A DNA stretch of 64,000 nucleotides from Microbacterium sp. TNHR37B (lineage in GTDB: Bacteria; Actinomycetota; Actinomycetes; Actinomycetales; Microbacteriaceae), in assembly GCF_001620065.1 (NCBI RefSeq), contig NZ_LQGV01000001.1, positions 372,001 to 436,000 of the forward strand. Direction: 5' to 3'. The position numbers and the translations under genes were made by a program. The notes below the pieces were generated by a model. That model was given only the letters and a program-made list of their open reading frames with translations. It had not been told where the DNA came from and searched no databases. Within the stretch, counting starts at the first letter, position 1. Every line of letters begins with the position of its first letter. This document shows positions 43,316 to 45,403 of this stretch, in pieces.

Positions 43316-43388
43316 GGGCGATTGGCGCAGTTGGTAGCGCGCTTCCTTCACACGGAAGAGGTCATCAGTTCGAGTCTGGTATCGCCCA
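43316..43388 (+). tRNA. tRNA-Val (CAC)
   Basis: 73-nt cloverleaf on the plus strand, divergent from the other three. Acceptor stem GGGCGAT/ATCGCCC, anticodon loop TTCACAC giving CAC, T-loop GTTCGAGTC, A discriminator, no CCA. A TAGCAT box at 43286-43291 may be its -10. Its 3' part overlaps, on the opposite strand, the last codons of the monooxygenase gene. Confidence 0.93.
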
Positions 43389-43724
43389 CTCCTCTCTTCC
43401 TGCCTCTTCCCGACCACTTCCCGCCTCGGCGAAGGTGGCGATGGTCATGAACACTCCCGGTCGAGCGCTGGACAGTTCCGCCGTGCGCCGCGCGTAGGCG
43501 GCGGCGCCCGGGGCCGATTGCGCCGCCGAGAGATGCTCCGCACTGTCCCAGCGCGCGACGTTGATGATCCGCGTGCCGTCGGTGCTCAGGAGCAGCTCGA
43601 GCGAGACGAAGCCGGCGCACCTCGAGAACACGGTCGCCGCGCCCTCCCGGAGATGTGCGATCACCTGGTCCCGGGTGTCCGGGTCGATGTCGAGGACGTT
43701 GACGAAGGTCACCGGTCCAGTCAT
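43365..43724 (-). CDS. antibiotic biosynthesis monooxygenase (ABM) family protein
   Basis: 119 residues from the ATG at 43724. The ferredoxin-like ABM pattern is visible: PVTFVNVLDIDPDTRDQVIAHL, a central FVSLELLLSTDGTRIINVARWDS and AEHLSAAQSAPGAAAYARRT. Members act as cofactor-free oxygenases or bind small ligands; the substrate is unknown. The last eight codons and the stop are read from the antisense of the tRNA-Val(CAC) 3' half. The upstream region holds a CCTCACA-N16-CGTC motif, matching that in front of the divergent ECF41 sigma gene, so this gene is a likely target of that sigma factor. Confidence 0.82.
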   Translation of the reverse strand: MTGPVTFVNVLDIDPDTRDQVIAHLREGAATVFSRCAGFVSLELLLSTDGTRIINVARWDSAEHLSAAQSAPGAAAYARRTAELSSARPGVFMTIATFAEAGSGREEAGREEWAIPDSN

Positions 43725-43780
43725 GTGGATCCTCCAGATCTGCGATGAGACGAGCACGTCGGTGGGCGGCTCTCCAGGTA

Positions 43781-43807
43781 GACGACACGACCCGCCGATG
43801 TGTGAGG
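43781..43807 (-). promoter_or_regulatory. ECF41-type promoter of the monooxygenase gene
   Basis: On the minus strand: CCTCACA (43807-43801), exactly 16 nt, then CGTC (43784-43781). The ECF41 consensus as I recall it is TGTCACA-N16-CGTC, so the -35 core CACA and the full -10 match with the correct spacing. The leader to the ATG would be about 50 nt. Confidence 0.6.
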
Positions 43808-43824
43808 TTCGGCGGCGAATCCGA

Positions 43825-43851
43825 CCTCACGGTCTGGGTGGCTGCGTCGTC
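43825..43851 (+). promoter_or_regulatory. ECF41-type promoter of the sigma factor gene
   Basis: On the plus strand: CCTCACG (43825-43831), 16 nt, then CGTC (43848-43851). It has the same layout as the divergent motif, with the two -35 boxes 17 bp apart and pointing away from each other. This suggests autoregulation of the sigma gene, with a leader of about 65 nt. Confidence 0.55.
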
Positions 43852-43921
43852 TCGTTGTCGAGAAGATGGGGCGAGGCGCGACGTGTGGCACCGGTGCCTG
43901 CCCCGACGGAAGGAGGGCGCA

Positions 43922-44839
43922 GTGGACGAGGACACCCACGCCCCGGATGCGGACGCGGCCGCGGCGAGCGAGCGCTCGGCACTGCGCGGGCTGGCGTATC
44001 GGATACTCGGGTCGGTCGCCGATGCCGAGGATGCCGTACAAGAGACCTACGTCCGGTGGTACCGGATGACGCCGTCGCAACGGCGGGAGATCCGCTCCCC
44101 TCGCGCCTGGCTGATGACGACGGCAGGGCGCATCGGCGTGGACATGCTGACCTCGGCGCGCGCCCGGCGGGAGCGCTATAGCGGGCCCTGGCTTCCAGAA
44201 CCCGTGCCCGGCGGCTCCACGTGGACGAGCGGCGGGGCAGCCGCGGTCGACCCGGCCGATCGGATCAGCACGGACGAGTCCGTCTCGATGGCCGTGCTGG
44301 TCGTGTTGGAGGCGATGACACCTGCCGAGCGTGTCGCCTTCGTGCTGCACGACGTCTTCGGCTACACGTTCCCGGAGGTCGCCGAGGTGGTCGGGAGGTC
44401 GCCGGAAGCGTGCCGCCAGCTGGCCGCGAGCGCCCGTCGACGGGTCCAGGGTTCCCGCCGGCGCCCTGTCGAGCCCGACGAGCATGCCGCAGCGGTGCGA
44501 GCGTTCCGGCTCGCGTGGGAGACGGGAGACACCGAGAACCTCATCGGTCTTCTCGACCCGAACGCGACCGCCGTCATCGATGGCGGGGGCGTCGTCTCTG
44601 CCGCTTCCGAACCGGTGGTCGGTGCCGAGGCGGTCGCCGCGCTCCTGATCGGGGTCCTGGCCCGACAGCCCGGTGTCACGGTCGCCGAAGATGTCGTGAA
44701 CGGCCGCCTCGGCCTCCTGGCTCGCTCGGACGGCGAGATCAGGGCCGTCATCAGCGTCGACCAGGTGGATGGCCGGTTCGTGGGCCTGTGGGTCGTGCGA
44801 AACCCCGACAAGATCCGGGCATGGCGGACCGAGCCCTGA
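43922..44839 (+). CDS. ECF41-family RNA polymerase sigma factor with SnoaL-like C-terminal domain
   Basis: 305 residues. Sigma region 2 (YRILGSVADAEDAVQETYVRWYR) and region 4 (PAERVAFVLHDVFGYTFPEVAEVVGRSPEACRQLAASARRRVQ) form the first 190. The rest is a SnoaL-like domain with the two ECF41 hallmarks, DGGG (AVIDGGGVVSA) and NPDK (VVRNPDKIRAW). In this group the C-terminal domain replaces an anti-sigma factor and tunes activity. GGAGG lies about 8 nt before the GTG at 43922. ECF41 genes usually neighbour a carboxymuconolactone decarboxylase, oxidoreductase or epimerase; here the neighbour is an ABM-family oxygenase. Confidence 0.9.
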   Translation: MDEDTHAPDADAAAASERSALRGLAYRILGSVADAEDAVQETYVRWYRMTPSQRREIRSPRAWLMTTAGRIGVDMLTSARARRERYSGPWLPEPVPGGSTWTSGGAAAVDPADRISTDESVSMAVLVVLEAMTPAERVAFVLHDVFGYTFPEVAEVVGRSPEACRQLAASARRRVQGSRRRPVEPDEHAAAVRAFRLAWETGDTENLIGLLDPNATAVIDGGGVVSAASEPVVGAEAVAALLIGVLARQPGVTVAEDVVNGRLGLLARSDGEIRAVISVDQVDGRFVGLWVVRNPDKIRAWRTEP

Positions 44840-44845
44840 CAAGGC

Positions 44846-45403
44846 TCAGCGCTCGATAGGCCAGCCCCAGCGACGATGCAGCGCGTCGGCCACGATCCGG
44901 TAGCGCGCCTCGTCGAGAATCGCCGCCTCTCGGCGCAGCCCGTCCCGATGGACGCTGTACACCTGGTCCAGGTCCAGCCATGACGCCCGGCCGGCGCTGT
45001 CCCAGTCGCCGGTTCCGATCGGGAGGAAGTCGCGGTCGCCGTCGTGGGCCTTGCTCGTGAGCTTGACCGCGAAGACACGCGACGCGTCCTGGCGCGCGAT
45101 CACGAGTACCGGGCGGTCCTTTCCGCGACCGTCGTTCTCGGCATAGGGAACCCACGTCCACACGATCTCGCCGGCGTCGGGATCACCGTCGAGCTCCGGG
45201 GCGTAGCCGATCTGCAGGCCGTCTGCGGGCGGTGGTGCGACCTCGACGGTGGCCGTGCCCGCGTCCTGCGGCGGCGTGGCCGTGCGTCGCGATGGGAAGG
45301 TGTCCGGAGCCGGGTCCGACGGCCGGAGCCGAGCCTTCGCCGTCCGCACGATTCCTGCGAGGAGATCTCGAACGGTGCGCGGGCGCGGCGAGGACGGCGT
45401 CAT
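44846..45403 (-). CDS. PemK/MazF-like toxin-family protein with N-terminal extension
   Basis: 185 residues. From about residue 78 the PemK/MazF fold is visible: GEIVWTWVPYAENDGRGKDRPVLVIAR, then VKLTSKAHDGDRDFLPIGTG and GRASWLDLDQVYSVHRDGL. The first 75 residues are Arg/Pro/Ala-rich and seemingly disordered, longer than in classical 110-residue MazF toxins. No antitoxin gene lies upstream or downstream; amtB and the sigma gene are its neighbours. Either the protein has lost toxicity, or its inhibitor lies elsewhere or in its own N-terminus. It converges on the sigma gene with only 6 nt between the stop codons. Confidence 0.72.
   Translation of the reverse strand: MTPSSPRPRTVRDLLAGIVRTAKARLRPSDPAPDTFPSRRTATPPQDAGTATVEVAPPPADGLQIGYAPELDGDPDAGEIVWTWVPYAENDGRGKDRPVLVIARQDASRVFAVKLTSKAHDGDRDFLPIGTGDWDSAGRASWLDLDQVYSVHRDGLRREAAILDEARYRIVADALHRRWGWPIER

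Follow-up and report, generated by a model that had tools for sequence, protein, structure and literature searches.

Organization of the locus

The window analysed here, 64 kb from the genome of Microbacterium sp. TNHR37B, contains an ABM-family oxygenase gene and an ECF41-type sigma factor gene that point away from each other. Both lie in a small islet between a tRNA gene and a PemK-like gene, and two predicted promoters stand between them. The features are as follows.

43316 to 43389, plus strand: tRNA-Val(cac), which bounds the islet on the left; 15 of 29 relatives have it close to the PemK-like gene
43365 to 43724, minus strand: ABM-family oxygenase gene (Pfam PF03992), 119 aa, ATG start, divergent from the sigma gene
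43781 to 43807, minus strand: predicted ECF41-type promoter facing the ABM gene; -35 CCTCACA at 43807-43801, 16-base spacer, -10 CGTC at 43784-43781
43825 to 43851, plus strand: predicted ECF41-type promoter facing the sigma gene; -35 CCTCACG at 43825-43831, 16-base spacer, -10 CGTC at 43848-43851
43922 to 44839, plus strand: ECF41/SigJ-type sigma factor gene, 305 aa, GTG start; sigma2, WLPEP linker, sigma4 and SnoaL-like C-terminal extension
44846 to 45403, minus strand: PemK-like gene (named by inspection), right boundary of the islet

The sigma protein scores 291.1 bits against the NCBIfam model PRK09636 of SigJ (cut-off 271), and 277 bits against TIGR02957 of SigX4, which is below the cut-off of 323. 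Pfam Sigma70_r2 and r4_2 are above cut-off, and residues 18-298 align with the structure of M. tuberculosis SigJ (PDB 5xe7, E 7e-47), a protein of the same sigma family that also carries a fused SnoaL-like domain. The full-length SigJ-type similarity together with the sigma2 and sigma4 regions identifies the protein as an ECF41 sigma factor. Its linker reads GPWLPEPVP and thus contains WLPEP, which is exactly kept in all 11 ABM-linked sigma factors described below and in 41 of 80 ECF41 loci (the best 80 of 111 relatives). The SnoaL-like C-terminal extension of about 100 aa, in which SnoaL_2 stays below the Pfam cut-off (18 versus 27 bits), shows the motifs DGGG, NGRLG and NPDKI. DGGG and NGxPG are C-terminal motifs of ECF41 proteins. 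An earlier note on this DNA had named DGGG and NPDK as hallmarks of the protein; both are present, and WLPEP is found in addition. NPDKL is named as an ECF41 motif in PMC7730460.

The ABM protein matches PF03992 with 37.9 bits (cut-off 23.1). A profile of the 11 ECF41-linked ABM proteins matched the solved structures 9lsd (1.5e-18), ActVA-Orf6 (4e-11) and SnoaB (3e-8), and the best fold matches of a structure model (mean pLDDT 80, residues 102-111 below 50) were 9lsd, Rv0793 and SnoaB, at 19-30% identity. The matches to HmoB and Rv3592 are far weaker than those to 9lsd, ActVA-Orf6 or SnoaB, which makes a heme oxygenase less likely. N9, N55 and W59 align with Asn18, Asn63 and Trp67 of SnoaB, if the numbering of the PDB chain is offset by one residue as we infer, and their equivalents are kept in 10, 10 and 11 of the 11 ECF41-linked ABM proteins. 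In SnoaB these three residues contact oxidised dithranol (PMC8093152). The protein thus has the ABM fold, as do the cofactor-independent oxygenases SnoaB, ActVA-Orf6 and RslO4, and an Asn/Asn/Trp active site of the SnoaB type. It differs from them by low sequence similarity and by a stretch around an invariant Q69 that is common to the ECF41-linked ABM proteins. The protein therefore resembles the SnoaB/ActVA-Orf6 oxygenases, and enzymatic activity is predicted. Such activity should not be assumed, because ArqI, another ABM protein, acts in signalling (PMC12274486).

Two predicted promoters of the ECF41 type lie back to back

The ECF41 promoter is given as TGTCACA-N16-CGTC in PMC3426412 (Wecke et al. 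2012), and the promoter of the S. meliloti ECF41 protein RpoE9, for which the start was mapped, likewise reads TGTCACA, 16 bases and CGTC (PMC6180224). The earlier note had proposed that the same architecture occurs on both strands of the intergenic region. This was found exactly: CCTCACACATCGGCGGGTCGTGTCGTC runs on the minus strand from 43807 to 43781 and faces the ABM gene, and CCTCACGGTCTGGGTGGCTGCGTCGTC runs on the plus strand from 43825 to 43851 and faces the sigma gene. The pattern common to both sites is CCTCACR-N16-CGTC, and 17 bases separate the two -35 boxes, which lie on opposite strands. The CGTC boxes lie 70 nt before the GTG start of the sigma gene (43922) and 56 nt before the ATG start of the ABM gene (43724), and a purine-rich site precedes each start codon. 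GCTGTCTCGTC is common to the RpoE9 promoter (PMC6180224) and to many of the sites studied here.

At both sites the -10 box is CGTC and the spacer falls within 16 ± 1 bases as in ECF41 promoters; the spacing and the CGTC are in fact exact, as the note had stated. The published -35 box TGTCACA is replaced by CCTCACA and CCTCACG. The note had placed the deviation at the 5' end only, which is right for the ABM-facing site; the sigma-facing box also deviates at its last base. With spacers of 15-17 bases, the motif occurs 3 times in the window versus 0.89 times expected, and at least three matches were seen in 7 of 100 shuffles. The local motif count alone is thus weak evidence, and the comparative evidence decides.

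The promoter motif is conserved across ECF41 loci

For the comparison, 80 loci were chosen by similarity of the sigma protein alone (the best 80 of 111 confirmed relatives), 330 bases upstream were scanned, and 200 rounds of dinucleotide shuffles served as control. In this best 80 of 111, CTSACR-N16-CGTC was found toward the sigma gene in 38 loci (shuffle mean 0.47, maximum 3), away from it in 52 loci (mean 0.50, maximum 3) and in both directions in 35 loci (mean 0.035, maximum 1). When the spacer was varied in the same best 80 of 111, a sharp peak appeared at 16 bases, and spacers of 15, 17 or 18 gave no match. A spacer of 13 gave 8 sigma-facing, 20 partner-facing and 5 two-sided matches, and smaller counts were obtained at 8, 11, 14, 19 and 22-25. 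The counts at 13 and 19 probably arise where repeats of CGTC or GTC close to the -10 box displace the match.

The choice of C or G at base 4 of the -35 box had been made after inspecting the ABM loci, and the count was hence repeated with CCTCACR. This stricter pattern was found facing the sigma gene in 19, facing the partner in 27 and on both sides in 10 of the best 80 of 111 loci, with shuffle means of 0.06, 0.07 and 0 and a both-strand maximum of 0 in 200 rounds; spacers of 15 or 17 gave none in these 80 loci. No site was seen on either strand in 25 of the 80 loci (best 80 of 111) by the CTSACR pattern, and in 11 of them even by a relaxed pattern.

The consensus that the earlier note had given is the one stated in PMC3426412, yet TGTCACA followed by CGTC after 15-17 bases occurs in 0 of the 80 loci (best 80 of 111). 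The relatives mostly have CCT(C/G)AC(A/G) as -35 box and TCGTC as -10 box. Among the matches of a loose pattern, the -35 box begins with CC in 33 of 64 that face the sigma gene and in 51 of 74 that face the partner, and with TG in one; the 5' mismatch of the window's boxes is therefore the common form in its relatives. The idea that base 4 of the -35 box (C or G) co-varies with the sigma factor was dropped, since in many loci the same sigma gene has one CTCAC and one CTGAC box.

The search was also run from the promoter side. The divergent pair pattern alone matched in 30 of 296 genomes of the class, and the reversed control matched in none. With one locus taken per genome, an ECF41 gene lies beside the pair in 24 of the 30 loci, the window included; five of the 30 genomes carry second matches. 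No adjacent ECF41 gene was found in the other six (L130, L133, L135, L141, L142, L143). The matches of L130, L133 and L135 resemble one coding sequence. L142 (genome G133) and L143 (G110) hold dispersed palindromes of the form GACGTCC...TGTCAGCC...GGCTGACA...GGGACGTC that are caught by the promoter-pair pattern, six times in G133 and twice in G110, and the locus taken from each is without ECF41. The conservation in loci selected by protein and the promoter-first search both support the reading of matched divergent ECF41-type promoters. The pair of sites is real and, with high probability, functional; the regulation itself is predicted.

Matches elsewhere in the host genome

A genome scan for the motif had been proposed in the earlier note. 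CCTCACR-N16-CGTC occurs 6 times in the whole host genome versus 3 times for the reversed control, which as a count is again weak evidence, and 3 of the 6 matches sit at the two ECF41 loci of the host, two at the locus described here and one at the second. The other three strict matches (L001, L004, L006) lie away from ECF41 genes. The L001 site is 45 or 72 nt upstream of a pyridoxamine-phosphate-oxidase-like gene, and it was rejected as a further target since no such site was found upstream in the three relatives that have this gene (in one of them, L182, the match begins at residue 44, which leaves the region before it less certain). L004 overlaps a long ORF of the minus strand in its start region. 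The L006 match overlaps a palindrome by a MerR-like gene and is, by inspection, probably that regulator's own site. A relaxed pattern gave 86 matches versus 24 in the control, which was too loose to serve as a target list.

The L006 match bears on another explanation of the pair, namely that the inverted GTGAGG...CCTCAC boxes form the operator of a dimeric repressor or of a MerR/TetR-like regulator. The two -35 boxes do make an inverted repeat, as operators do, and at L006 the motif falls, by inspection, on a palindrome upstream of just such a regulator gene. However, the distance between the boxes ranges from 0 to 45 bases across the 35 two-site loci (best 80 of 111), whereas the spacer between a box and its own CGTC is always exactly 16 bases. 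Some loci have one-sided sites, and an ECF41 gene stands beside the pair in most of the pattern-selected loci. We consider an operator highly improbable and retain the reading as two promoters.

An ABM oxygenase gene recurs as the partner of ECF41

An ABM gene was found divergent from the sigma gene in nine of the 80 loci (tblastn; best 80 of 111), namely L007, L028, L044, L046, L054, L058, L061, L064 and L067; three very weak tblastn matches (L008, L016 and L073, E 0.03 to 0.8) were left uncounted. A search in the genus found it in 3 of 99 genomes, which are the host, G074 (L093) and G038, whose locus L094 is the one already counted as L064. The nine loci, the window and the same-genus L093 make 11 ABM/ECF41 pairs. 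Four of the loci (L028, L058, L061 and L067) belong to metagenome-assembled genomes; L061 is labelled Thermoanaerobacterales, perhaps wrongly.

The comparison of orthologous pairs that the note had suggested bears the motif out: both promoters are kept in 10 of the 11 pairs when base 4 of the -35 box may be C or G (CTCAC or CTGAC), and 3 of the 11 have the exact CCTCACR box on both sides. In L093 the ABM-facing site is present and the sigma-facing site is absent. Both boxes are CTGAC in L044, L046, L054, L058, L064 and L067, and L061 has one of each.

When the downstream ORF was chosen mechanically, 62 of the 80 loci (best 80 of 111) had a partner-facing promoter. Their partners are 16 epimerase-like proteins, 9 ABM proteins, 7 FMN reductases, 7 SnoaL-like and 7 LUD proteins, 2 YceI proteins, 2 carboxymuconolactone decarboxylases and 12 singletons, several of which are questionable as reading frames. 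Partner names rest on one representative per cluster, and ABM was named by its match to the window protein. An obligate link of ABM to ECF41 was rejected: all 23 further ABM relatives (L155-L165 and L167-L178) were without ECF41 within about 1.5 kb on each side, some of these regions being cut by contig ends.

A tree of 106 sigma proteins was built by a quick search with SH-aLRT support only. The 11 ABM-linked sigma factors require 3 label changes on it versus 10.7 for shuffled labels, and none of 500 shuffles reached so low a value. Eight of them, the window's included, stand on one side of a branch with support 97, and three group with L129 with support 94. The sigma factors linked to ABM thus group together on the tree. 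Those from the four alphaproteobacterial records are almost identical and sit on a long branch (0.98), and they therefore count as one lineage whose exact place is unsure; their grouping with actinobacterial ABM-linked sigma factors possibly reflects transfer between phyla.

Some neighbouring genes were noted beside these pairs. The four alphaproteobacterial records (L044, L046, L054, L058) carry nearly identical ABM/ECF41 pairs with a SnoaL/DUF4440-like gene after them. In L007, L064 and L067 the gene after ABM is DoxX-like (Pfam-supported for L064), and in L129 a DoxX-like membrane protein gene, judged by eye, occupies the partner place alone. The window has no DoxX-like gene beside ABM.

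The second ECF41 gene of the host (L005, L088; G000:C1:1386525-1387376, within 1386525-1387512) encodes a sigma factor 51% identical to the one in the window and is divergent from an epimerase-like gene. That partner is preceded by CCTCACA-N16-CGTC, and a strict sigma-facing site is absent there. With the same site at the second locus, the promoters in the window could be real and be read mainly by this second sigma factor, or by both in cross-talk. Against this, every ABM locus except L093 keeps the promoter pair beside its local sigma gene, and the sigma lineage tracks the ABM partner. Core boxes alone cannot assign a site to one sigma factor. Reading by the second ECF41 protein, alone or jointly, is thus unlikely, and the local sigma factor is the preferred candidate.

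The pair lies in a variable spot of the genus

The stretch that separates tRNA-Val(cac) from the PemK-like gene (window 43316-45403) is a variable spot in the genus. Of 59 genomes in the genus, 57 have the PemK-like gene, the host among them. tRNA-Val(cac) was seen in the stretch in the 15 relatives mentioned above, about 20 to 1204 bp from the PemK-like gene and within 89 bp of it in 7 of the 15, and it was absent from the stretch in 14 of 29. None of the 29 relatives has ECF41 at this position at E 1e-10. In the host, 1456 bp lie between the tRNA and the PemK-like gene and hold the ABM/ECF41 pair. The last 25 bp of the ABM frame overlap the 3' end of the tRNA in antisense (window 43365-43389), and the frame exceeds its ECF41-linked relatives by 17-19 residues, as though the original end had been lost at the junction. 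The simplest reading is that the pair arrived beside the tRNA end. GC content (0.70 versus 0.69) gives no sign of origin.

Discussion

The layout agrees with published ECF41 systems. According to PMC3426412, 55 of 373 ECF41 loci are divergent from an enzyme gene, with a promoter before the sigma gene in 36 of them and before the partner gene in 41, and the neighbour genes were the sole targets detected. The locus shares with the ECF41 systems with divergent COE partners described there the WLPEP linker, the C-terminal extension, the adjacent partner gene, the 16-base spacer with CGTC, often before both divergent genes, and the lack of an anti-sigma gene. The partners in PMC3426412 are carboxymuconolactone decarboxylases, epimerases and oxidoreductases, whereas the neighbour here belongs to none of these classes and is an ABM oxygenase; the -35 box there is TGTCACA, whereas it is CCTCACR here and CTGAC in some ABM pairs. 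The main text of PMC3426412 names no ABM and does not contain the word monooxygenase, and ABM is not among the Pfam domains it gives for the oxidoreductase class. Titles and printed abstracts of the literature on ECF41 and on sigma factors with monooxygenases, a scope outside which the 2021 reclassification (Casas-Pastor et al.) falls, also name no ABM partner of ECF41. Because the neighbour is an ABM, the locus is an ECF41 variant and not a plain member. The earlier note had held that such a pair would be a different module; this is right for the partner enzyme, but the architecture is already published. The locus is a partner and -35 variant of the published regulatory layout.

ECF41 activity is under the control of the C-terminal extension (PMC3426412; also PMC8999054, PMC8103513 and PMC7730460), and the inducing condition was unknown to the founding authors (PMC3426412). 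The locus is very probably a self-contained ECF41 switch of this kind, as far as sequence comparison can tell. The sigma factor (43922-44839) would read both back-to-back promoters, of which one would drive the ABM oxygenase and the other the sigma gene, giving positive autoregulation. Its activity would be set by the fused SnoaL-like domain and not by an anti-sigma factor. This domain would hold the sigma factor weakly active when the cue is missing, and a small molecule or a redox change would release it, so that both genes rise together. The ABM oxygenase would in turn eliminate or transform the inducer. The autoregulation and the dependence on this particular sigma factor are predictions from the promoter arrangement, and its use of these sites, the ligand and the oxygenase feedback are likewise what we infer.

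SnoaL-like and SnoaB-like folds both occur in enzymes of aromatic polyketides. A tentative and, taken as a whole, rather doubtful extension is that the pair is a portable cassette for sensing and destroying one compound: the SnoaL-like domain might bind an aromatic hydroquinone- or anthrone-like molecule, the ABM protein might oxidise the same molecule, its removal might switch the system off, and the cassette might move as a unit between actinobacteria and Alphaproteobacteria.

Relatives of the ABM protein oxidise anthrone-like aromatics, and this offers concrete candidate inducers for ECF41. The layout of one sigma gene, one enzyme and two matching promoters could easily be moved to a laboratory strain. 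Since one promoter type recurs beside at least seven protein families, ECF41 may be a generic switch with an exchangeable partner.
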